Shown here piece after piece: positions 12,293 to 46,595 of a stretch of DNA of 49,433 nucleotides. Origin of the DNA: Fibrobacter sp. (GTDB lineage Bacteria; Fibrobacterota; Fibrobacteria; Fibrobacterales; Fibrobacteraceae); the NCBI GenBank assembly GCA_024399065.1, contig JAKSIB010000026.1, forward strand, positions 1 to 49,433, in the 5' to 3' direction. The notes beneath the pieces are model-generated. The model did no database searches. It was not told where the DNA came from and was given only the letters and a program-made list of their open reading frames with translations. Position 1 is the first letter of the stretch. The number at the start of each line of letters is the position of its first letter. The position numbers and the translations under genes were made by a program.

Positions 12293-13591
12293 ATGGATCA
12301 GCCCTTAGCAGAACGTTTACGCCCCCAGAACCTGGATGAGTTTCTTGGACAGAACAAGATTCTCGGTGCCCAGAGTCTGCTGCGCAAAAGCCTCGAGAAC
12401 GACACCGTGCCCAGCATGATTTTCTGGGGCCCTCCGGGCTGCGGCAAGACTAGTCTCGCCCACGTCATTAAGCAAAAGACCCGCAAGGCATTTGTGGCGT
12501 TGTCCGCGGTTTCCAGCGGCGTCAAGGAAGTGAAGGAAGTTCTGGCAGACGCCCGCAAGATGAAGGCCATGTTCCAGGACACGATTCTCTTCATCGACGA
12601 AATTCACCGCTTTAACAAGGGCCAGCAGGACGCATTGCTGGGCGCCGTGGAAGACGGCACCGTAACGCTTATCGGCGCCACTACGGAAAACCCCGGGTTT
12701 GAAGTAAACGGGGCTTTGCTTAGCCGCTGCCAGCTGATTCTGTTTGCGCCACTTTCCAAGGAAGACTTGCGCACTCTGATTTTTAGCGCCTTGAAGGAAC
12801 ATCCCCGCGGCCTCCAGCTGAAAGATGTTGAAGTGGAAGACGCTGTTGTCGACAAGCTGATCGCACAGTCCGAAGGAGACGCACGATTCCTGCTGAATCA
12901 GCTGGAATGGATCGGCGGAAACCTGGGCGGAAGAAAGGTCATTGACGAAAAGCTTCTGGAAGAATTCCAGTACAAGAAGCCCCTGCGTTACGACAAGAGC
13001 GGCGAAGAACATTACAACCTGATTTCTGCACTACACAAGTCCATCCGCGGTTCCGACCCGGACGCCGCCGTGTACTGGCTGCACCGTATGCTTCAAGGCG
13101 GCGAGGACCCGCGTTACCTATTGCGTCGAATGATTCGTATGAGCATGGAAGACGTTGGCCTTGCAGATCCTAACGCCCTGCTGCTAGCAACAAGCGCCCG
13201 AGAGGCATACGACTTCCTGGGAAATCCCGAAGGCCTTATCGCCTTGGACCAGCTTGCAGTCTACCTGGCTCTGGCTCCCAAGAGCAACAGCCTTGAAGTT
13301 GCAGGCATGACCGCAGACGAAGTCATCCGCCAGACAGGCACGCTCCCCGTGCCCCGCGCCTTCCGCAACTCCGTCACCCGCGTAGGTAAGCAGCTTGGCT
13401 ACGGCAACGGCTATCAGTACGATCACGACTCCCCCGGTGGCTACTCCGCCCAGGAACATCTGCCCAAGCAGCTGGAAGGCATGCGCTTTTACCAGCCCAA
13501 GCAAATCGGCAAGGAAAAACTTTTCGCTGAACGCCTGGAACAGCTCAAGGCCATCCGCGACGAAAAGCTTGGCAAGAAAGAAGAATCCTAA
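12293..13591 (+). CDS. rarA: Replication-associated recombination protein A (AAA+ ATPase)
   Basis: 432 residues. LAERLRPQNLDEFLGQ start, Walker A GPPGCGKTS at about residue 46, Walker B ILFIDEIHRFNKGQQDALL, sensor 1 GATTENPGF, and the RarA-specific tetramerisation region (LISALHKSIRGSDPDAAVYW). It acts at stalled replication forks as a clamp-loader-related ATPase. The 3' end (from 13445) is duplicated 2295 bp downstream at 15740-15913. The present C-terminus ends EKLGKKEES. The stop codon overlaps by three bases the stop of the convergent gene at 13588. Confidence 0.96.
   Translation: MDQPLAERLRPQNLDEFLGQNKILGAQSLLRKSLENDTVPSMIFWGPPGCGKTSLAHVIKQKTRKAFVALSAVSSGVKEVKEVLADARKMKAMFQDTILFIDEIHRFNKGQQDALLGAVEDGTVTLIGATTENPGFEVNGALLSRCQLILFAPLSKEDLRTLIFSALKEHPRGLQLKDVEVEDAVVDKLIAQSEGDARFLLNQLEWIGGNLGGRKVIDEKLLEEFQYKKPLRYDKSGEEHYNLISALHKSIRGSDPDAAVYWLHRMLQGGEDPRYLLRRMIRMSMEDVGLADPNALLLATSAREAYDFLGNPEGLIALDQLAVYLALAPKSNSLEVAGMTADEVIRQTGTLPVPRAFRNSVTRVGKQLGYGNGYQYDHDSPGGYSAQEHLPKQLEGMRFYQPKQIGKEKLFAERLEQLKAIRDEKLGKKEES
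13445..13591 (+). repeat. Direct repeat copy 1: 3' end of rarA
   Basis: The last 49 codons of rarA (SAQEHLPKQLEGMRFYQPKQ onward). They align without gaps for about 140 bp with 15740-15880, at about 90% identity by eye, with most differences at third codon positions. Together the copies bracket the three-gene operon 13588-15664. Confidence 0.9.
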
Positions 13592-14082
13592 TCCGCCGCC
13601 GGCTGGTCCCAAGGGAAGGGAACAAGAGCGTTTTCAGACGGACCTACCGGAATCGTCATATTCGCCGGAAGTTTACCGATATCATCAGGCATCGCGGCCA
13701 TAATAATGGTTACTGGTAGCACGACAACTCCGGCTGCCATAAAGAGGAACACCCCGAACGGAGAGCTGACCATTCCGGACATGTCCTTCAACAATTTAAA
13801 GCCTCCGTTTATGGTCCTCAGCGAATGGTTATCACTGTGCCCGCGTTTACTATTCTCTCTAGCCACAAGCAGGTGACCATATACAACGTCACCTTTGCGG
13901 GCTTCCAGAACCATCTCGTCGCCGGAGGAACTTTTAATCAAGCAACTCTGCGTGGACTCGCAAACGCGCTCGCCATTGCGGTAAAATTCGTAATCCTGAC
14001 TATCGGAAACCGTTACCCACGAGGTACTAGAGCATCCAACCAGAAGAATCGTCAGCAGTATTGCAATCATCTTCTTCTTCAT
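13588..14082 (-). CDS. Small lipoprotein, unknown function
   Basis: About 164 residues. Lipoprotein signal MKKKMIAILLTILLVGCSST, then a beta-rich segment (YEFYRNGERVCESTQSC) reminiscent of PEGA-type surface domains, and a hydrophobic segment FGVFLFMAAGVVVLPVTIIM at about 110-135 that may be membrane-embedded. It is last in a three-gene operon and its ATG overlaps the upstream stop as TGATG. The frame also allows ATG 14091. Its stop overlaps the rarA stop. No family recognised. Confidence 0.72.
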   Translation of the reverse strand: MKKKMIAILLTILLVGCSSTSWVTVSDSQDYEFYRNGERVCESTQSCLIKSSSGDEMVLEARKGDVVYGHLLVARENSKRGHSDNHSLRTINGGFKLLKDMSGMVSSPFGVFLFMAAGVVVLPVTIIMAAMPDDIGKLPANMTIPVGPSENALVPFPWDQPAAD

Positions 14083-14906
14083 CACCACCATACCTGAGCA
14101 CTAACGTTCCACCCGTGGGCACGGCAAAGTTTACCGTCACGAGCATTTTCAAAATCAATGTAGTTGTACAAATAGCGCACATCCAGGGCATAAATAACCC
14201 TAGCCGCAGCGGGCTTGTAGAAAGCCCCCATTCTCAATAAGAACGCCAATCCCCCATCTGAGATTTCGTACTTATCAGAATTGTAATATACCATGGAAAA
14301 ACCGATTCCAGGTCCCACATAGGGGAACAGGGAGTGGCCTCCAAGCACGTAAGCGCCAGACAGGAAAGTGCCAATGTTCCCAAAGTCCCGGGAGTCCAAG
14401 CCTACATCAAACGCCCAGGCAAAATCCCAGGAGATAAGGAAATCCTTGTACAAGTAGTTCGCCGATAAATCTACGGTCGGAGAAATGTCAACTTCCGGGG
14501 ACAATAGTCCCGTGGCTCCAAGGCCAAGACCCCACCGAAGCCCGTTCCACTGGCCAAATTTCAGGGACACAACATCCACAATAGGATTCAAGTCATCAGG
14601 CGTATAGGCCATGTGCTTGTATGTCCAAACCGTTGCCTTGTCGCTAGAATTCAGCAGCGAGTACACCACCAGAATCCCATCATCCTGACGTAGCATTTTT
14701 ATTTGCAATAGAAAATCGCTGGCGTAGGCAGACTCCGCCACAGACACGTCACCGTTTGTTCTGAGTACGCTTTCGGTCCGGCGCACCACCTTTTCTGCGT
14801 AATCCTTATGGACACCATCCAGTTCCACCGCGGTGTCAACGAACACTTTGGGCCTAGCCCAAAGAGCAGTGCAAAGTACCAGCAGAATAAATAAAACGCG
14901 ATACAA
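14082..14906 (-). CDS. Outer-membrane beta-barrel-like protein with TTG start
   Basis: About 274 residues. A perfect AGGAGG is placed 6 bases before TTG 14906, which is therefore preferred to the longer open frame. A signal peptide (YRVLFILLVLCTALWA) is followed by a soluble N-terminal part (VFVDTAVELDGVHKDYAEKV) and then alternating aromatic/glycine strands (GLGLGATGLLSPEVDISP, FPYVGPGIGFSMVYYN), ending in VSAQVWW. Such a C-terminal aromatic ending is typical of outer-membrane barrels. Function unknown; co-transcribed with the flanking lipoproteins. Confidence 0.7.
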   Translation of the reverse strand: MYRVLFILLVLCTALWARPKVFVDTAVELDGVHKDYAEKVVRRTESVLRTNGDVSVAESAYASDFLLQIKMLRQDDGILVVYSLLNSSDKATVWTYKHMAYTPDDLNPIVDVVSLKFGQWNGLRWGLGLGATGLLSPEVDISPTVDLSANYLYKDFLISWDFAWAFDVGLDSRDFGNIGTFLSGAYVLGGHSLFPYVGPGIGFSMVYYNSDKYEISDGGLAFLLRMGAFYKPAAARVIYALDVRYLYNYIDFENARDGKLCRAHGWNVSAQVWW

Positions 14907-14923
14907 GGCGGTCCTCCTAAACC

Positions 14924-15664
14924 CTAGTCTTTCAAGCAACGAAGGCTAGCTCCACCGGATTTGGCTTCAAACATCGAAGTAACTGAGTCTACGTCTGTAA
15001 AAACTTGTGTATAAGAAGCATTAATCCCATACTCCGCTACAGACCACATAGAAACAACCTCTTCCAAGAGCATGTATGAACCATTTATGTAGCGATATCC
15101 AGAAGGAATCGCGTTAAACCCAATTGCATCCATTCCATTTGCATTCTCAGTCCACCCACTAGTTGACTTGAGCTTGGATCCTGCGACTTTTACACCGCCC
15201 ACCTTCTTGAACAGGGCACCAAACTCAGACTGCGTAGGTACATGCCAGCCTTCAGGGCATATTCCTCGATGAGGTTTATTGGGTTTACATTTCTTGCCCA
15301 AACCACAAGCTACAACACCATTGGCTTCCGATACAAGGCCAGCACTATCCATGGCAGCAGACCAAGTGTATAAGCGACCATGAGCGTCACAATTGCTTTT
15401 CATCCCTTCGTAACACCAGCTAGTAGAATCAGAAATAAATGCAGGTGTAGAATAACTTATACCCGTGTAAGCATAGTTCAGGTTTTCGGCCATCCAAGTT
15501 TGATTGCCAATCGTAACAGTCTTATAAGTCTGTCCGTCTCGGCTATCCGTCATGGTGCCCAAGGTGAACTCAATCTCACCATCCGACACTTCCGAAGGTG
15601 AATCATCGGAGCAGGCCACAAAAACAAAACTCAAAGCCGTAATCAAAAGTAAAACGTATTTCAT
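14924..15664 (-). CDS. FISUMP domain lipoprotein
   Basis: 246 residues. Lipoprotein signal with lipobox FVAC near residue 18 (MKYVLLLITALSFVFVACSD), then the Fibrobacter major paralogous domain: DSRDGQTYKTVTIGNQTWMA, ENLNYA, RLYTWSAAMDS, CPEGWHVPTQSEF, NAIPSGYR, SLRCLKD. It is the first gene of the operon; its stop lies 17 bp before the TTG start of the barrel gene. Paralogue of the protein at 7976-8554. Confidence 0.88.
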   Translation of the reverse strand: MKYVLLLITALSFVFVACSDDSPSEVSDGEIEFTLGTMTDSRDGQTYKTVTIGNQTWMAENLNYAYTGISYSTPAFISDSTSWCYEGMKSNCDAHGRLYTWSAAMDSAGLVSEANGVVACGLGKKCKPNKPHRGICPEGWHVPTQSEFGALFKKVGGVKVAGSKLKSTSGWTENANGMDAIGFNAIPSGYRYINGSYMLLEEVVSMWSVAEYGINASYTQVFTDVDSVTSMFEAKSGGASLRCLKD

Positions 15665-15739
15665 AATATATCAAACCATTTTTTATAATAACATAGAAAA
15701 ACTAAAAAATGGACTTGTTGATTTTTTAATAGAGGGTTT

Positions 15740-15913
15740 TCCGCCCAGGAGCATTTGCCCAAGCAGCTGGAGGGCATGCGCTTCTACCAGCCCAAGCAGA
15801 TCAGCAAGAAAAAACTTTTCGCTGAACGCCTGGAACAGCTCAAAGCAATCCGCAACGAAAAGCTGGGCCGAAAAGCAGAAACTGCAGAAGAAAAGAAAGA
15901 CTCATCGCTTTAA
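15740..15913 (+). pseudogene. rarA: Remnant of a second rarA 3' end
   Basis: 58 in-frame codons, including the stop, starting SAQEHLPKQLEGMRFYQPKQ. They align with the last 49 codons of intact rarA and then diverge into a longer ending (GRKAETAEEKKDSSL). There is no start codon or promoter, and the upstream sequence (15665-15739) is AT-rich and unrelated to rarA, so it is a displaced gene tail. Its stop overlaps that of the convergent gene at 15910 exactly as rarA overlaps the gene at 13588. Confidence 0.88.
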
Positions 15914-19190: not shown

Positions 19191-19748
19191 TTAGAACTTG
19201 ACTTCGGGAGCCTTGTTCAAGGATTCACGGCTTTCAGTAGCTTCGTACATGGCAGCGCGCTTGAAGTTGAACATGCCAGCAATGATGTTGTTGGGGAAAA
19301 TTTCGCAAGCGTTGTTGAATTCCTTGGTAGCGGAGTTGAAGAAGCGGCGAGCTGCAGCCAGCTTGTTTTCGATGTCAGAAAGTTCAGTCTGAAGCTGGAG
19401 GAAGTTGGTATTGGCCTTCAGTTCCGGGTAGGCTTCCAGGGAAACGCGGAGACCGGCAAGAGCGCTGGACATAGCCTTGTCCGCTGCAACCTTTTCATCC
19501 ACGGTCTGGGCACCCATACCGGCGGCGCGGGCAGCGGTAATCTTTTCCAGGGTTTCCTTTTCGTGGGTGGCGTAACCCTTCACGGTGGAAACCAGCTGGG
19601 GCACCAAATCAAAGCGCTGCTTCAGCTGAACATCAATGTTTGCAAATGCGTTTTCGCGGTTATTGCGGAGCTTCACCAGTTTGTTGTAGGTGGTGATCAG
19701 CAAGAGGACGATGATGACGGCGACAGCAATGATAATTCCAGCGACCAT
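19191..19748 (-). CDS. lemA: LemA family protein
   Basis: 185 residues. One N-terminal membrane helix (MVAGIIIAVAVIIVLLLITT) followed by the LemA helical body (YNKLVKLRNNRENAFANIDV, QLKQRFDLVPQLV, EKITAARAA, LQTELSDIENKLAAARRFFN). LemA proteins are membrane-anchored helical-bundle proteins of uncertain function that often accompany M48 proteases, as here with htpX. Confidence 0.93.
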   Translation of the reverse strand: MVAGIIIAVAVIIVLLLITTYNKLVKLRNNRENAFANIDVQLKQRFDLVPQLVSTVKGYATHEKETLEKITAARAAGMGAQTVDEKVAADKAMSSALAGLRVSLEAYPELKANTNFLQLQTELSDIENKLAAARRFFNSATKEFNNACEIFPNNIIAGMFNFKRAAMYEATESRESLNKAPEVKF

Positions 19749-19825: not shown

Positions 19826-20511
19826 TTACCCCAATTCGTCCCGCAGGAACTTTTCCAGCGTATCCTTCTGGGGAAGAGCCAGCATGTAGGTGGAAACAAA
19901 CAGTTTGTTATCCATTCCCGCCAGGGCATACTCCACCATCTTTTTGCCCTTCTTCGTGCAGAGAAGAATACCCACAGGCGGATTATCCCCCTCGTTCATT
20001 TCGTTTTCCTTATAGTAGGAGACATAGGCATTCAACTGTCCCAAATCTCCGTGGTTAAAGGAAAAAAGGGTCTTCGACGGTCATGATTTCGCGTATGTGC
20101 GAAAAGGAAAGATTCTCAATAATTCGTTTAGCCGGCGTTTCGAATTCGTCCAACAGCGTTGGACTAATTCCGCTAGCCAAATAACCCTTGATTTTAGGGT
20201 AAATTTGATAAAAACGACGACAATTTTTAAACAGAGTCTCGTTCATCCCTCTTGTATTCAACCGAGCTTCAATATTTTTTCAGCAACTTTTCGCCATACT
20301 TCGCACGATCAAGACCTTTCTGCTCGTACTCAACAATGTAATAGCCGATCAGGTAATTTCTGATGGTGGCAAGTTTGTTTACCGCCTTCACCGAAGCGGA
20401 GTAGGCACTCTTGTGAATCTGCTCCAGAGAACTGGCCAGACCTTCGAAAGTCTGGGGATTGGAATTCTGCCAACCATTAGGCAACTGGAAGTCTTGAATT
20501 TGACTGGACAT
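19826..20511 (-). pseudogene. Broken DUF1016 (YhcG-like PDDEXK nuclease) gene
   Basis: Three consecutive fragments of one DUF1016 protein. 20511-20269 encodes the N-terminal helical domain (starting MSSQIQDFQLPNGWQNS). 20261-20055 continues with LNTRGMNETLFKN to HIREIMTVEDPF. 20044-19826 encodes the C-terminal end (GQLNAYVSYYKENEMNEGDN to LEKFLRDELG). Stops and frame changes separate them, and the central part with the nuclease catalytic core is missing between TVEDPF and GQLNAYV. About 220 codons remain of a usual 340-370. Intact relatives are linked with restriction or recombination loci. Promoter and leader are preserved. Confidence 0.85.
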
Positions 20512-20567
20512 AGTATCTCCTTTGGAAAGAAAAAAGACATCTGTTTTTCAGATGCCTTGGAGATACT
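20512..20567 (-). promoter_or_regulatory. Leader with terminator-like hairpin inside an SD/anti-SD stem
   Basis: Read on the minus strand: AGTATCTCC (20567-20559), then hairpin CATCTG-AAAAA-CAGATG (20554-20538) followed by TC and six T, then GGAGATACT (20520-20512) directly before the ATG at 20511. The outer arms are a perfect 9-bp complement, so the Shine-Dalgarno sequence can be sequestered; the inner hairpin with its T-run looks like an intrinsic terminator. An identical leader is at 25540-25595. Confidence 0.65.
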
Positions 20568-20586
20568 TTTTCGAACCTCGGGCGGA

Positions 20587-20614
20587 ATTATAGCTTATAC
20601 ATAAATACTGGCAA
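20587..20614 (-). promoter_or_regulatory. Promoter of the DUF1016 gene, copy 1
   Basis: Minus strand TTGCCA (20614-20609), 16-bp spacer, perfect TATAAT (20592-20587), about 75 bp before the ATG. The same promoter is in copy 2 at 25615-25642. Confidence 0.7.
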
Positions 20615-20732
20615 GGGTCAAATTGTAATTTGTTTGTAAAAGGAGATCCTCCCCATACGGGAACCATGCGCACTAAGGAACAAGTTCCTAAGTGCTGTCC
20701 GCCGGAATCAAGTCCGGGATGATATGCTGGGT

Positions 20733-22703
20733 TTAAAGGAATTCGGCGGTGAATACGCTGCCGTCTTCAGGAGTAACTAGGCGGGGATTTTCCTTGACGC
20801 CGTCAGACCACTGCTTAAATATTCCCGTGGTTGCCTCAGCCTTCAAGAGCATGCTGTTTCCGCCAAAGAACGTACCTGTGTAATTGACTCGGGACAATTT
20901 CATTCCATCGATGGTTACGTAGCCGCCGCCATTGGCACCTACAGAAACCGTGATATCGTCACCAAAGCCAAATTCCTTACGGTAGTCTGCACGAAGGGCA
21001 GCGTTTCTACCCTTGCTATAGTACAAAATCATATCACCACGGGCATCAAATTCTCCACACATACCTGGATAAAAGCCGCAATAATCCCTACGGAACTTCT
21101 TCATGTCTCTTTCAATTTCGGAACCCGGAATTTGAGCATTTACCGCACTCAGAGATTTCTCCAATCTTTCTTCGGTCAAATATTCGTTAAGCATCACAGC
21201 GCCGTGGTTAGCAAACATTCTTCTGAAGTCGGGATTTTCCATCAGCTTTACATAAATATTTGCAAAGTATCCCGGGCCAGTTCGGCCTTCACCACGGTCA
21301 TTGCGCATCCATTTAAACATGTTGCCGCCATTCATCTTAAAATCGGAGCTAACCCACTGCCACTCTAGACTCTGGTCTGTATCAAAAAGCATGAACTTGA
21401 ATGGCTGACCAGGAGAGCGCCAGGCGCGCATATTGTTACTGGGCCAGTCCGCATTCTTCAAGTAGAACTGGGCTGCGAGATAGTCGGCATAGTTGCCTAC
21501 ATCCATCATGGTCTGAACCTTGGCGTAAGCCTCGTTGTTCTCGCCGGAAAAATCATTTGATGCCACAAAAGCCAAAAGTTCCGCATAGTAGTGGCCATCG
21601 CCAGCACTTGGCGTCACAACATCTTTTTTCTGCTTCACCATTTCTACGGTGTTATTGTCGATTCCGTAATTCGTTTCAACAAAGTGTTCGTTCAGTCTTT
21701 CGCGAAGGTCGTGAATGCCGTAGTATTCACCATTGTAGAATACCACCACCTGACGGTTACGCTGATAATCTACGGAGGATCCTTCTACGATTGCAGTCAT
21801 TGCCGGGTCACCCACAAGGTCGCCTACGTAGCGGTTTCCGCTATTGCGCAAGTTAAAGCCCCTGAACTTGTTCACTTCCGGGCGGACCGTGAACAAGTTG
21901 TACTTCAGCTTCTTTTCGTTATACTGCTTCTTGATCTTGATTGCCACGGGCTTCTTGGGATAAGTACGGCTGTAGTTTCCCATCAGAGAAATACCGGCGT
22001 CGACTTCCCAGGCCTTGCCGCTGCTGCGGCTACCATTTTCAAAAAATTCCACATGAACAGGATCTTCGGTTTCATCCATCAGGCCGGGGCATCCGTAGGG
22101 ATCATCACCTTCGCATCGTGACGTGTTCACATAGACTCTTCTAAAGAAGGAAGGGTCCACACTGATGGCCACCACCGGCATGGAAACGGTTTCACCAACA
22201 AAATAAGTCTGAGTGGACTTTCTTAGTTCATATCCGCCCTTGGCTTCGACACAGCGAACTACCGTATTCTTGGTAATTGTCAAAGGCCAATCCAAGACTT
22301 CCTCATAGTCCATAGGATCCCCACCGTCGAGAGTGCAGTAAATCTGCCCGCCCTTTACAGGCGCCGGTTCAGGAATGGTAAAAGATTCAGCATAGAAGCC
22401 CGCAGGCGGCAACAGCTTCGGAGACAGGTCTACCTCATCTTCGTCTTCATCCCCTTCATCCTTGTCTTTATCACCAGAAGGTTCTTCCACGTTCTTGATC
22501 ATTTGTTCCAAGAACCAGGAGTAAAGAGAATCTGTTCCAAACAGACTGTCAGGAATCACAAGGCTATCCAGGTCGAAGGTAAAGTCTCCAAATTCACTTT
22601 TGACTTCAACAACTTTTGAATCTTCACCACTACAACCGCACAGTCCAAAGGCGCACAAGGAGCTTGCTATCAAGAATGCAAAAAGACTTTTTTTGAATTT
22701 CAT
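20733..22703 (-). CDS. CotH kinase family lipoprotein
   Basis: 656 residues. Lipobox GLCGC at about residue 23, an acidic low-complexity stretch (GDKDKDEGDEDEDE) near 75-90, and a chitobiase C-terminal-like domain at about 94-170 (GGQIYCTLDGGDP, VVRCVEAKGG). A CotH protein-kinase-like domain spans about 200-520 (GISLMGNYSRTYPKKP, NLRNSGNRYVGDL, VVFYNGEYYGIHDLRERLNE, NADWPSNNMRAW, FMLFDTDQS), then a beta C-terminal domain. CotH proteins are secreted atypical kinases; anaerobic gut bacteria have many, sometimes linked to plant-fibre degradation or surface structure. Substrate unknown. Confidence 0.87.
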   Translation of the reverse strand: MKFKKSLFAFLIASSLCAFGLCGCSGEDSKVVEVKSEFGDFTFDLDSLVIPDSLFGTDSLYSWFLEQMIKNVEEPSGDKDKDEGDEDEDEVDLSPKLLPPAGFYAESFTIPEPAPVKGGQIYCTLDGGDPMDYEEVLDWPLTITKNTVVRCVEAKGGYELRKSTQTYFVGETVSMPVVAISVDPSFFRRVYVNTSRCEGDDPYGCPGLMDETEDPVHVEFFENGSRSSGKAWEVDAGISLMGNYSRTYPKKPVAIKIKKQYNEKKLKYNLFTVRPEVNKFRGFNLRNSGNRYVGDLVGDPAMTAIVEGSSVDYQRNRQVVVFYNGEYYGIHDLRERLNEHFVETNYGIDNNTVEMVKQKKDVVTPSAGDGHYYAELLAFVASNDFSGENNEAYAKVQTMMDVGNYADYLAAQFYLKNADWPSNNMRAWRSPGQPFKFMLFDTDQSLEWQWVSSDFKMNGGNMFKWMRNDRGEGRTGPGYFANIYVKLMENPDFRRMFANHGAVMLNEYLTEERLEKSLSAVNAQIPGSEIERDMKKFRRDYCGFYPGMCGEFDARGDMILYYSKGRNAALRADYRKEFGFGDDITVSVGANGGGYVTIDGMKLSRVNYTGTFFGGNSMLLKAEATTGIFKQWSDGVKENPRLVTPEDGSVFTAEFL

Positions 22704-22797
22704 AATTTAAAATATCGCCTAGTTATGTAAAATTTAGTTTAAACAAAACTGCTGTTCAAAATAAAAAAACACCTATGTGATATTCACTAAACAATAA

Positions 22798-22819
22798 ACC
22801 CCGGCACAATGGCCGGGGT
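22798..22819 (-). terminator. Terminator after the lipoprotein gene 22847-23638
   Basis: Stem ACCCCGGC (22798-22805) / GCCGGGGT (22812-22819). On the minus strand it is followed by a short T-rich tract (TTATTGTTT). It separates the protease-lipoprotein pair from the cotH gene. Confidence 0.75.
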
Positions 22820-22846
22820 CCAAACAACATCTGTTAAAGGAGAAGA

Positions 22847-23638
22847 CTAAAGCAATTCTTCCTTAATCCAGTATCCATATGCATATATGGCCGGACCATC
22901 CTTAACATTGCAATTCCATGCTTGACTTTTGTAAAGTTTTCTCTGAATCGAAGCCTCGGCTAGATTCTCACCAGAACAATTTTCAATCAACGCTCCCATT
23001 CGTATATAGTTATTCGAGGACATACACATATCTCCGGTTCTTGCAACACCGACCAATAGAATAGAATCCTTTTGAACGGACTGCACAACTTTTCCTGAAG
23101 GTTGGTTTGTATCTCCAATAATCATCAGGTAATAATCACATGTCTCGCTAGATTGATGTTTTTCAATCCGTTCCTTGATTCCAGGAAAGAAAATATCTAG
23201 ACTATCCTTATCCAGTTTACGAACACCTTCGACCAAATATTCTTCAGGAACATTCGCCGGAGAATAGCCAGTTCCATTGTAAGCCAACACCGACGAATCA
23301 AAAGACAATTCCTGTGGATTATCAGTAAACTGCCTAGCATATTCCTCCAAGGAACCGCTAACCTTAGGAATCCACACGTTTGAAGATCCGTATTCATTGT
23401 CTTTAACAAAACTAGATGAAGACAAAGTATCAACTGTAGAACCTTCCCGACTATCAGACGAGGGCGGCGTATTGTATTCTCCATTCGATTCAACATTTTC
23501 AGACTGTCCACCATTTTCCTTGTTCTGAACCGACGCCAAGTTTCCTGGATTATCTTCAACAGTCACACTTTCTCCAGATCCGGAATCACAGCCTACAAGG
23601 GCTAATAACGTAGCAATGAATATAAACTTGAATTTCAT
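22847..23638 (-). CDS. Lipoprotein downstream of the subtilase, unknown function
   Basis: 263 residues. Lipoprotein signal MKFKFIFIATLLALVGCDSG, then an Asn/Ser/Gly-rich spacer to about residue 85, then a domain with several cysteines (ETCDYYLMIIGDTNQPSG, ENCSGENLAEA, AWNCNVKDGP). No family recognised. It begins 14 bp after the subtilase gene stop, so the two are probably one operon. It may be a substrate, inhibitor or surface partner of the protease; this is inferred from pairing only. Confidence 0.7.
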   Translation of the reverse strand: MKFKFIFIATLLALVGCDSGSGESVTVEDNPGNLASVQNKENGGQSENVESNGEYNTPPSSDSREGSTVDTLSSSSFVKDNEYGSSNVWIPKVSGSLEEYARQFTDNPQELSFDSSVLAYNGTGYSPANVPEEYLVEGVRKLDKDSLDIFFPGIKERIEKHQSSETCDYYLMIIGDTNQPSGKVVQSVQKDSILLVGVARTGDMCMSSNNYIRMGALIENCSGENLAEASIQRKLYKSQAWNCNVKDGPAIYAYGYWIKEELL

Positions 23639-23652
23639 GTGTACGCTCCTTA

Positions 23653-25332
23653 TTATTGATTATGCCAGAAGTTATATCCCAAAACAACATCACCCATTCC
23701 AGAATTGGAGTATCGTTTAATTTTAACAATCAGATCACTTGATGACGTCGTGAAAAAATCAACAACTTCAAACGGATTTGACGAGCTCTCAGAACGAGCA
23801 ATTAATTCACCATCTTGATAGACAAAAAGATCCAAATCTTGTGAAATCATCCTATGGGCATAAACATATGTAGCCGGGGTCAACCATGCAATAGCTATTC
23901 TATAGTGATGATTTGCGACAATATTACTTTCAATCTTCGTTATCATCCCACCATCATCAAAGCAACAGCCATTTGGACCATTCCAATAAGCAGAACGATT
24001 ATTCCAAGCTAAATCGCTATAAGCAGGAACACCTTTTGCAACATTAGCATAATTGTCCCGATCATGGTCAGCGTCTCCTATAGCAAGAGAATTGGCCGTC
24101 AGCAAAAGAGCCTTTACAACCTCAGGATGTCTTTTGTAGAAAACATGATCTTGTAGTAAATCAGCAACCATCCCAGCCATGTATGGAGTTGACGCACTAG
24201 TGCCATCAAAAAAACCGTTATAACTTACAGAGCCGTTTTCCCACACATAATGCGCATTCGGGAAAAAGAAATCCGTAAAATTAGCAACTTCAGGTTTCTG
24301 ATTCCTTATATCTGAATTTCTCCAAGCAGAATAAGAAGCATAATTTCTCGTCATAGGATCAACTGCACCCACAGTAATCGCATTAACTGCAAGCCCGGGA
24401 CTTTTCACCCAAAAATCATCATCCTCATCTTCAAAATTCTTATTTCCTGCACAAACAAAATTGATAACTCTATTATTGTAAATATAGTCATCCATATCAA
24501 CATCAGCTTGGCAATAATCACCCCCAGCACAAACCGTCCAAGAATGCGATCCAACATCTATTTGAGGATCCATAGTATTTGGGTTAGGATAAGCATCCTC
24601 ATCGTAACCATAAATCATTGCTTGAGGGGCTGTTTCTTGAAGAATTCTAGCAACACCTGTCGGATGCCCCTTATAACCACGATAACACGGCGTCATCGCA
24701 GAATAATGGTCCGTATCTAAGTCAGATGTTTCAGGACATCCCGTTTCATTAAAATACACACCAACACCATTGCCTTTATGGTTATTGGTAAACGCATGAG
24801 TATTAATTTGAGAAAGGGTAAAAATACTCGAATAGGTCATTGACGGTTTCGGTTCTTTATATTCCCCAACTAGAACAGGAGTCGGTCCACTTAAAAGTTC
24901 TCGAATTTCTTTCGCCGTAAGGTAATCGACATAGCTAGGCTTATAGAACTTTTCGTTTTCCTTTTTCGTTCGAGACACATAAGCATCTTTTGACAGAAGC
25001 TGATTATTCAACCAATATCGAGGAAACAACACATCGTTTTCATAACGACCATAGGAAGCTGAGTCCATTGATTCTCTAAAAGAGAGATCACTCACAATGA
25101 CCTTCATTCTGTTTTCTATCGGAAAAACAGCTGTTTTCAATTGATCCCGCTGTCTTCCCATAACATCTCGTTCAACGCTTGCAGTTCTATACTGAGTCTT
25201 TTGATTCAAGAATTCTTCAACAGCCCTCGTCACATGGCTTTGAGGAACATATTGCGGCAATACATCAACCTTTCCTTCCTCAGACCAAACGCTTGTTATA
25301 ACAAAAAATGTGAATGCAAAATACTTTTTCAT
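23653..25332 (-). CDS. Secreted S8 (subtilisin-like) peptidase with Glu in place of the catalytic Asp
   Basis: 559 residues. Signal peptide about 1-17. A long N-terminal region to about 185 may be a propeptide. Peptidase domain: GNGVGVYFNETG puts Glu196 where S8 enzymes have the Asp of DTG/DSG. GHPTGVARI gives His223, FVCAGN gives the oxyanion Asn297, and DGTSASTPYMAGM gives the nucleophile Ser379. The C-terminal 100 residues form a beta domain (YRIAIAWLTPATYVY, DLDLFVYQDGELI, VVDFF) like the P/jelly-roll domains that follow many bacterial S8 peptidases. The base composition is AT-rich compared with the flanking housekeeping genes. First gene of a two-gene unit. Confidence 0.85.
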   Translation of the reverse strand: MKKYFAFTFFVITSVWSEEGKVDVLPQYVPQSHVTRAVEEFLNQKTQYRTASVERDVMGRQRDQLKTAVFPIENRMKVIVSDLSFRESMDSASYGRYENDVLFPRYWLNNQLLSKDAYVSRTKKENEKFYKPSYVDYLTAKEIRELLSGPTPVLVGEYKEPKPSMTYSSIFTLSQINTHAFTNNHKGNGVGVYFNETGCPETSDLDTDHYSAMTPCYRGYKGHPTGVARILQETAPQAMIYGYDEDAYPNPNTMDPQIDVGSHSWTVCAGGDYCQADVDMDDYIYNNRVINFVCAGNKNFEDEDDDFWVKSPGLAVNAITVGAVDPMTRNYASYSAWRNSDIRNQKPEVANFTDFFFPNAHYVWENGSVSYNGFFDGTSASTPYMAGMVADLLQDHVFYKRHPEVVKALLLTANSLAIGDADHDRDNYANVAKGVPAYSDLAWNNRSAYWNGPNGCCFDDGGMITKIESNIVANHHYRIAIAWLTPATYVYAHRMISQDLDLFVYQDGELIARSESSSNPFEVVDFFTTSSSDLIVKIKRYSNSGMGDVVLGYNFWHNQ

Positions 25333-25380
25333 ATAAAAATCGGCTTTTTTCCAATATATAATTTTTAATTAAGCCAGTCA

Positions 25381-25539
25381 TTATAAATTCAGGTCTAAAA
25401 TACCTCGCTTACGAATAGTCCAATTTTCAAATTGGTGCGACGACGTCGCACTAATTACGTTTGCCAAACCTTCAAAAGTCTGGGGGTTGGAATTTTGCCA
25501 ATCGTTGGGCAACTTGAAATCTTGAATTTGACTGGACAT
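25381..25539 (-). pseudogene. Truncated DUF1016 5' end fused to unrelated codons
   Basis: Starts at the same ATG and leader as the DUF1016 gene and shares its first 26 codons (two amino-acid differences: Q to K, G to D). It then switches after EGLA to an unrelated 26-codon sequence beginning NVISATSSHQFENWTIRKRG and stops. The switch point is the edge of the direct repeat. HQFENW is reminiscent of Mrr-type restriction endonuclease domains, but the piece is too short to assign. Confidence 0.6.
25420..25451. other. Two abutting perfect palindromes at the repeat edge
   Basis: CCAATTT-TC-AAATTGG (25420-25435) shares its last base with GTGCGACG-A-CGTCGCAC (25435-25451). They lie 10 bp from the outer edge of direct repeat copy 2 (25461), inside the fused reading frame, at the junction where the accessory DNA meets the DUF1016 head. 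Confidence 0.6.
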
Positions 25540-25750
25540 AGTATCTCCTTTGGAAAGAAAAAAGACATCTGTTTTTCAGATGCCTTGGAGATACTTTTTC
25601 GAACCTCGGGCGGAATTATAGCTTATACATAAATACTGGCAAGGGTCAAATTGTAATTTGTTTGTAAAAGGAGATCCTCCCCATACGGGAACCATGCGCA
25701 CTAAGGAACAAGTTCCTAAGTGCTGTCCGCCGGAATCAAGTCCGGGATGA
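25461..25750 (-). repeat. Direct repeat copy 2: DUF1016 promoter, leader and 5' codons
   Basis: Same 290-bp unit as 20433-20722, offset 5028 bp, in the same orientation. Includes promoter 25615-25642, the SD/anti-SD arms 25540-25548 and 25587-25595, and the hairpin 25566-25582. It ends 10 bp before the yggS stop, as copy 1 ends 11 bp before the cotH stop. Confidence 0.92.
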
Positions 25751-25759
25751 CACATTGTG

Positions 25760-26566
25760 TTAAACGGGATCGTTTACGGGCTTGCTGTAGTCGCGTTCGC
25801 CGAAGAGGGCGGTGCCTACGCGGATCATGGTAGAACCTTCTTCGATGGCCACTTCCAAGTCGCCGGTCATGCCCATGGAAAGCTGGTCGAAGTTTGCGAA
25901 TACGCCGCCCCTGGCCAAGTACTTCTGCTGAAGATTGCGGAGGAAGGCAAAGCATTCGCGGGAATCTTCTGCAACACCGGTGTTCTTGCCGATGGTCATG
26001 AGGCCGCGGAATTTCAAGTGCTGGAATTTTTCGCTCTTGCCGTCGGGACCACAAGGGCCAGCGACTTTTTCAAGTTCTGCCAGGAATGCGTCGGCGTTTG
26101 CAACATCCAAACCGCTCTTGGTTTCTTCTTCGCCGGCGTTCACCTGAAAAAGAATTTCCAAAGTCTTGCCATTGGCCGCAACCTTTTCGCCTGGCAGTGC
26201 TGCGCAGACCTTTTCCAGTTTTTCAACGGCTTCCATGCTTGCAATGGAATGAATGCAGTCGGCGACGATGGCGGCCTTCTTCAATTTGTTGCTCTGCACA
26301 GGTCCTATGACATGGCACTGCACCGGGGAGCCATCGAGAGCCACGCGACGTTCGCTGAACTTGGATTCCGCTTCCTGCACGCGGTTCTCGCCAAAGACTT
26401 TTGCACCCAGGGCAATTGCGTTTTCCACTGCTTCCGCCGAGTGGAACTTACTGACCCAAACCAAAAGCACCGATTCACGGGAACGGCCCGCCTGAGCGCA
26501 AGCGGCAGAGATTCTCGTTTCCAATTTGGCCAGCTGGCCACGCATTTCTTCAAGAGTAAATTCCAT
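25760..26566 (-). CDS. yggS: YggS family pyridoxal-phosphate homeostasis protein
   Basis: 268 residues from the ATG at 26566. Type III-fold PLP-binding protein: LLVWVSKFHSAEAV contains the PLP lysine (Lys40), followed by FGENRVQEAESKF, HVIGPVQSNK, IHSIASMEAVEKL, FRGLMTIG, LSMGMTGDLEVAIEEGSTMI and RVGTALFGERD. These proteins buffer PLP and have no known catalysis. Internal insertion in NTGVAEDSRECFAFLRN is normal. The frame is open eight codons upstream, but homology starts at MEFTLEE. Confidence 0.94.
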   Translation of the reverse strand: MEFTLEEMRGQLAKLETRISAACAQAGRSRESVLLVWVSKFHSAEAVENAIALGAKVFGENRVQEAESKFSERRVALDGSPVQCHVIGPVQSNKLKKAAIVADCIHSIASMEAVEKLEKVCAALPGEKVAANGKTLEILFQVNAGEEETKSGLDVANADAFLAELEKVAGPCGPDGKSEKFQHLKFRGLMTIGKNTGVAEDSRECFAFLRNLQQKYLARGGVFANFDQLSMGMTGDLEVAIEEGSTMIRVGTALFGERDYSKPVNDPV

Positions 26567-26652
26567 GTTCCGAAATATAGAAAAACCCATAAGCCCAAGT
26601 TTTTATGGAACCGACTTTTAATATATTGCAGTACGGAAAGGCGAGGAGAACT

Positions 26653-45951: not shown

Positions 45952-46319
45952 TAGAGAACCTCAGGTGCGAGGGAGATGATCTTCATGTACTTCTTGTCGC
46001 GGAGCTCACGAGCCACCGGTCCAAAAATACGGGTTCCACGCGGTTCACCTTCCTTATTGATGAGAACCACTGCATTGTCGGAGAAACGGATAAGCGTTCC
46101 ATCCGGACGTGCGATTTCCTTACGGGTGCGGACGACTACTGCGTCTGCCACGGAACCCTTCTTCACCTTGCTCTGGGGGATAGCGTCTTTAACGGCTACC
46201 TTGATGACATCACCGATGCTTGCATAGCGACGGTTTGTGCCACCCAAAACACGGATGCAGGCGACTTCCTTGGCACCACTGTTATCGGCCACGACGAGTC
46301 TGGTTTCTTCTTGAATCAT
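45951..46319 (-). CDS. rplN: 50S ribosomal protein L14
   Basis: 122 residues: [37 protein letters not shown] and [28 protein letters not shown]. Five-stranded barrel at the subunit interface. 21 bp after rpsQ. Confidence 0.97.
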
Positions 46320-46340
46320 ATTCGCCTTACTCCAAAAAGA

Positions 46341-46595
46341 TTATTTCTTCTTTTCCACAATGCGAACCAGGCGCCAGCGCTTAGTTGCAGAGAGGGGACG
46401 AGTTTCCATGATTTCTACCAGGTCACCTTCTTCGGCTTCATTGTTTTCGTCATGAGCCTTGAGCTTCTTAGTAGTAGTCATGATTTTGTTGTACATCGGG
46501 TGACGCTTGCGGTTTTCAACCACAACCGTGATGGTCTTATCCATCTTGTCAGAAGAGACAACGCCCTGCTTAACCTTACGAAGGTTTCTATCCAT
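46341..46595 (-). CDS. rpsQ: 30S ribosomal protein S17
   Basis: 84 residues: [40 protein letters not shown], then [22 protein letters not shown]-fold protein binding 16S rRNA near its 5' domain. Follows rpmC by 18 bp. Confidence 0.97.

Follow-up and report, generated by a model that had tools for sequence, protein, structure and literature searches.

The yggS-lemA locus and its direct repeats

The stretch of DNA analysed here (the window; 49,433 nucleotides from a Fibrobacter sp. genome) contains a series of minus-strand features in the order yggS, R1, subtilase, lipoprotein, cotH, R2, DUF1016, lemA and M48 peptidase, where R1 and R2 are the two copies of a repeat, R. The features of this interval are:

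25760..26590, minus strand: yggS, core gene, left border of the variable interval
25463..25750, minus strand: R1, the yggS-side repeat copy with a G011-like head allele; comprises the dispersed hairpin element, the promoter, the leader and codons 1-26 of DUF1016
25425..25452, minus strand: further remnant of DUF1016 belonging to R1 (nt 343-370, codons ~115-123), containing the palindrome GTGCGACG-N-CGTCGCAC
23653..25332, minus strand: cassette gene 1, subtilase-family protease (PF00082), 559 aa, GC 39%
22847..23638, minus strand: cassette gene 2, putative lipoprotein without Pfam family, 263 aa, GC 40%
20733..22703, minus strand: cassette gene 3, CotH-family protein (PF08757, E 2e-32)
20435..20722, minus strand: R2, the cotH-side repeat copy; head allele G024-like
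20638..20722 in R2 and 25666-25750 in R1, minus strand: dispersed element of ~85 bp, CCGG arm and GCACTTAGGAACTTGTTCCTTAGTGC hairpin
20512..20570, minus strand: R2 leader; predicted fold with a 9-bp stem over the ribosome-binding site and, nested inside this stem, a hairpin resembling an intrinsic terminator
19826..20511, minus strand: DUF1016/YhcG pseudogene 3' of R2, frameshifted and lacking nt 445-839 of the G024 gene (deletion point about 20063/20064)
19191..19748, minus strand: lemA (PF04011), core gene, right border of the variable interval

R1 and R2 are direct copies of 288 bp with 96.9% identity and a spacing of 5028 bp, which confirms the two direct copies and the distance given in a preliminary description of this DNA. 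That description also placed an end of each copy about 10 bp from the stop codon of the preceding gene, and the repeat indeed starts ~10 bp past the stop codon of yggS (R1) or cotH (R2). On the minus strand, each copy comprises a hairpin element (CCGG/GCACTTAGGAAC), a promoter-like TTGCCA-16-TATAAT pair, a structured leader and the first 25-26 codons of DUF1016. The contents of the proposed unit of hairpin, promoter, leader and 26-codon head are therefore present, but R1 does not stop at codon 26, as a further DUF1016 fragment is retained. The full 288-bp unit occurs only twice in the whole 3.8-Mb genome, and R is thus not an ordinary dispersed repeat. A unit scattered hundreds of times, or doubled in all strains, would have spoken against a tie to the cassette; instead, the full unit is present twice in the window genome, once in G024 and never twice in the other genomes searched. 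Its promoter-leader part (unit positions 94-236) is also found in a few further places, where it precedes another DUF1016 gene and an AlbA_2-type gene.

The three genes named earlier as lying between the copies were recovered, cotH and the subtilase by a Pfam scan and the lipoprotein as a putative assignment. The same scan detected no recombinase, transposase or integrase family in the three cassette genes. The GC content of the subtilase and lipoprotein genes is 0.39-0.40 versus 0.54 for yggS and 0.50 for the window, and this low value agrees with an import of the two genes. Within the genus, the best relative reaches 46% for the subtilase, 33% for the lipoprotein and 69% for cotH, the last being encoded in the same genome. 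A search with the subtilase found no relative in the genome contigs searched, and neither these contigs nor the genus relatives yielded a donor molecule or a strain with an identical cassette.

The yggS-lemA interval in related genomes

The yggS-lemA intervals of relatives were computed with LemA as the right marker. In six other genomes of the genus, lemA directly follows yggS at a distance of about 100-150 bp. G041 contains yggS, one R without the 85-bp element, an intact DUF1016 gene of 358 aa and lemA, and it has no cassette. In G024, yggS is followed by one R, an intact DUF1016 gene and two other genes, again with no cassette between yggS and DUF1016. Both genomes provide the cassette-free yggS interval with one repeat copy that had been predicted as an empty site. 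A single R match at this locus is also present in G070, and the one copy in G011 is split by an insertion. There, a 3'-truncated DUF1016 gene precedes a lipoprotein gene, and the lipoprotein gene of G070 is 82% identical to it.

The interval carries yet other cargo in further genomes, namely ArsR-like/P-type ATPase cargo in G009, an AAA/DUF4143 gene with an rve-domain fragment in G052, a Fib_succ_major gene in G044 and a List_Bact_rpt protein gene in G024; the cargo of G009, G052 and G044 is unrelated to the window cassette. Judged by these gene contents, the yggS-lemA interval is an insertion hotspot.

A cargo bordered on either side by DUF1016 sequence was found in two cases, the window and G070. 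In G070, yggS is followed by a 63-bp internal DUF1016 fragment, the lipoprotein gene, R and an intact DUF1016 gene. Reading of the fragment revealed DUF1016 nt 303-362 fused to the last bases of the gene and its stop codon. This composition suggests that the different cargo of G070 was probably flanked on either side by a longer DUF1016 copy in the past. An alternative explanation of the fragment, as a junction at the palindrome, was rejected because the sequence reads as a decayed longer DUF1016 copy.

Relics of a longer DUF1016 duplication

Past codon 26, R1 shows a 265-bp deletion that is followed by DUF1016 nt 343-370, and the relic ends just beyond the palindrome GTGCGACG-N-CGTCGCAC. To judge by the sequence, two TTTGGC motifs were joined in this deletion, an event at microhomology. 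As R1 keeps nt 343-370 and the DUF1016 gene on the R2 side is dead as well, the duplication once covered at least about 600 bp, with subsequent decay of both copies. Read in this way, R is the deletion-trimmed relic of a longer DUF1016 duplicate rather than a bounded module. The discrete, mobile 290-bp promoter-leader-head unit of the preliminary description was consequently abandoned, because R1 carries a later DUF1016 piece beyond its deletion.

In the other searched genomes that have it, the palindrome GTGCGACG-N-CGTCGCAC occurs once and nowhere outside this DUF1016 gene or its fragments; the exception is G070 with two occurrences, where a DUF1016 fragment is duplicated. A role of the palindrome GTGCGACGNCGTCGCAC as a dispersed insertion hotspot was considered and rejected, since elsewhere it is located only inside this DUF1016 gene or its fragments. 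For a palindrome within the DUF1016 coding region, the dyad symmetry is kept and the sequence differs between copies, as seen by comparing window positions ~20140-20165 with L037:8894-8910 (GTGCGACGCCGTCGCAC versus GTCCAACGCTGTTGGAC). A literature search, which left most subscription papers outside its reach, found no publication on DUF1016 in Fibrobacter.

Head alleles and the pattern of identity

R1 and R2 are identical over their first 231 bp, and all nine mismatches are located in the last 57 bp, from DUF1016 codon 7 onwards. Such clustering has a probability of 4.7e-7 under uniform placement of the mismatches, a calculation that disregards a possible difference between coding and non-coding rates. 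The allele argument comprises these nine sites in all: R2 is identical to G024 at nine of nine, and R1 is identical to G011 at eight of nine. R2 and G024 differ in the non-coding part, indicating that the upstream part is not immutable. Heads that match two lineages, combined with one common upstream sequence, point to recombination with imported DNA of another strain and, presumably, to conversion between the two copies. Nevertheless, conversion following an unrelated insertion would produce the same identity pattern, and a similar appearance would be expected if two DUF1016 copies had been acquired separately and the cassette added between them.

Parallel loci in the same genome

The arrangement at R had been likened to that of rarA in the same window, where a gene tail is duplicated instead of a head:

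13445..13573, plus strand: rarA tail copy 1, joined to the gene; its C-terminal end is new and not ancestral
15740..15868, plus strand: rarA tail copy 2; behind it lies the ancestral sequence that also follows rarA in G041

The likeness holds. Both tail copies comprise 129 bp and are 91% identical, and among 41 genomes two copies are present only in the window genome; the 35 others with a significant match show no second copy. With the new end in copy 1 and the ancestral flank behind copy 2, the inserted DNA brought a replacement rarA tail. In this region (window 13445-15868), the replaced end is followed by an insert that encodes a Fib_succ_major protein and a beta-barrel protein, and the ancestral tail is left behind at 15740-15868.

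Repeats were also surveyed in stretches of the genome that amount to 836 kb or 22% of its length. In addition to rarA and R in the window, the survey returned a thrS-tail array on contig C4, which is the other clear case, and a more diverged leader pair on contig C3; the remaining repeats look like paralogous gene families. The array on C4 (45600-68945; L171, L172) includes the full thrS gene (66834-68945) and four partial copies, located at 62834-63529 (94%), 53164-54707 (97%), 46256-46544 (99.7%) and 45971-46156 (79%). Genes for lipoproteins, a subtilase, a beta-barrel protein and a Fib_succ_major protein lie between or beside these fragments, and a scan of ten proteins of the array detected no recombinase family. 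Extra thrS fragments are also present in G009, and six genomes (G003, G004, G005, G008, G010, G014) have one match each. On C3 (78267-84116; L039), the leader copies are 85% identical over 163 bp, are 5.7 kb apart and surround an AlbA_2-type gene and an LlaJI-type restriction gene. This pair adjoins DUF1016 genes in a defence-like island.

The preliminary description had proposed a cassette mechanism that is general in this genome. This proposal is only partly supported: the process recurs, with a few candidate loci in the 836 kb surveyed, but these do not amount to a genome-wide pattern.

A model for cassette entry and its alternatives

We consider it probable that the cassette entered by homologous recombination in a resident promoter-DUF1016 locus, in a single-crossover (Campbell-type) event that left the target duplicated on both sides. 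Incoming DNA would exchange by homology with the resident R-DUF1016 locus, and the other end of the insert would be closed either because the DNA was circular or by joining with little homology, which places the target on both sides. The imported DNA would stem from a related strain and have been circular, or linear with homology lacking at one end, and the upstream parts may have been homogenised by the crossover or by a later conversion tract. The joining of the cotH-side end may have involved the dispersed CCGG element: the sequence preceding R2 (AACCCAGCATA) corresponds to what flanks such elements in G024 and not to the flank on the yggS side of R1. Apart from the dispersed element, the cotH/R2 junction shows no extended homology, and at least one end is thus not explained by long homology. 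We infer the crossover itself solely from the allele mosaic. Empty sites, two different head alleles, duplications of a gene head here and of tails at rarA and thrS, and a cassette that lacks a recombinase all follow from the single-crossover model. A ComEC-family gene, the only competence-related gene found, is a weak, predicted sign of DNA uptake. Once in place, the cassette could be read from the R1 promoter, and recombination between R1 and R2 could excise it, so that the same repeats may permit its loss.

It is rather unlikely that the locus grew piecemeal, with two DUF1016 genes acquired or tandemly duplicated first and the cassette inserted between them later by an unrelated event. The varying interval cargo of G009, G052, G044 and G024 and the different head alleles of R1 and R2 are compatible with such an accretion, but it needs more steps, no genome was seen with two adjacent DUF1016 copies and no cargo at this locus, and the change from one copy to two is repeated at rarA. 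An assembly artefact, in which a short-read assembler joined two strains or loci via the 231-bp identical repeat, appears improbable. The genome is a draft of 3.8 Mb in 118 contigs, the identical tract is as long as a read, and the different head alleles could stem from such a misjoin. However, the independent relic of the same layout in G070 speaks against a pure artefact, the lower identity of the rarA duplicate makes a misjoin harder there, and the contamination estimate is 1.91%.

DUF1016 itself (YhcG, a PD-(D/E)XK nuclease) might drive the process by cleaving related DNA, stimulating recombination at its own locus, and thereby spreading and dragging cassettes along. DUF1016 fragments border different cargo in two genomes (the window and G070), and restriction-modification systems have been reported to insert with long target duplications (PMC3031569). 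This role is nonetheless very improbable, because both window copies of DUF1016 are dead and the same pattern occurs at rarA and thrS, where the inserts examined contain no DUF1016. Least credible of all is mobility by a site-specific recombinase or transposase, as in an integron cassette, an integrase island or a composite transposon. Hairpins within the unit and dispersed elements at its outer end are reminiscent of such systems, but the cassette genes include no recombinase family, and the six matches to the integron integrase model TIGR02249 in the genome are all below the curated cut-off. Moreover, the repeats are alleles of resident genes, a head at this locus and tails at rarA and thrS. 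Unlike an integron attC site, R is a 288-bp gene head, and in contrast to the ends of a composite transposon, its copies contain no transposase gene but only promoter, leader and DUF1016 codons.

Relation to known systems

The proposed single-crossover entry has precedents. Restriction-modification genes are the cases from which insertion with long target duplication was described (Nobusato, Uchiyama, Ohashi and Kobayashi 2000, Gene 259:99, as cited by PMC3031569 and PMC3154945). As portrayed in these citing papers, the process shares with the window case an insert that is absent in relatives (here G041 and G024), long direct repeats of the target, an insert free of recombinases and a target present once at the empty site; the repeat in the window measures 288 bp and was formerly longer. 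It differs from the cases first described in its cargo, which consists of CotH, subtilase and lipoprotein instead of restriction-modification genes, and in its target, the 5' end of a nuclease gene. A restriction-modification cargo is probably a trait of these first cases and not of the mechanism. The window case fits insertion with long target duplication, since the testable structural features are all present, with a different cargo and a presumed recombination step.

In Escherichia coli, single crossing-over left partial lacZ duplications of 109-950 bp in most clones examined (PMC3240628). The partial target duplications of 129 and 288 bp in the window are in this range and resemble the products of single-crossover or homology-facilitated illegitimate recombination, although laboratory plasmid substrates were used there and only the end product is seen here. 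Transformation-driven merodiploidy in Streptococcus pneumoniae arises by alternative pairing, in which a dispersed repeat and a unique homologous stretch allow one donor fragment to pair at two places and generate duplications (PMC3784515); with about 100-900 kb, these are far larger than those of the window. Insertion of the cassette probably occurred by ordinary homologous recombination with duplication of the target site, which is a known kind of event.

With its empty sites, allele mosaics and partly decayed relics, the locus provides a case in which surface-protein genes may be inserted or exchanged without transposases or integrases. As suggested by thrS and rarA, partial copies of housekeeping genes beside genes for lipoproteins, CotH proteins or proteases in Fibrobacter may be footprints of insertion. 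A broader conjecture, which we regard as unlikely, is that the ends of resident genes (the DUF1016 head, the rarA tail and the thrS tail) serve as recurrent landing or exchange handles for envelope-protein cassettes of Fibrobacter. This would occur by plain homologous recombination with no dedicated recombinase, and a selfish DUF1016 nuclease and the common leader would aid the process at some loci.

The dispersed element and the leader

The outer (leftmost) ~85 bp of the unit represent a separate dispersed element of the genus. Few related copies are present in the window genome and more in G024, where most of the 18 matches counted for the unit correspond to this part. The element with its GCACTTAGGAACTTGTTCCTTAGTGC hairpin, which is also found in L031, is seemingly split into a shorter CCGG element.

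The leader fold has a z-score of -3.87 and places a terminator-like hairpin with a U-run inside the stem over the Shine-Dalgarno sequence. An Rfam search with the leader returned no match. The nested fold is predicted for several divergent copies, and some paired changes are seen in the inner hairpin. Copies of the leader are located at window positions 20512-20570 (minus strand), at L039:4268-4410 and L039:9957-10095, and in L129 and L132, where they precede DUF1016 genes and one AlbA_2 gene.
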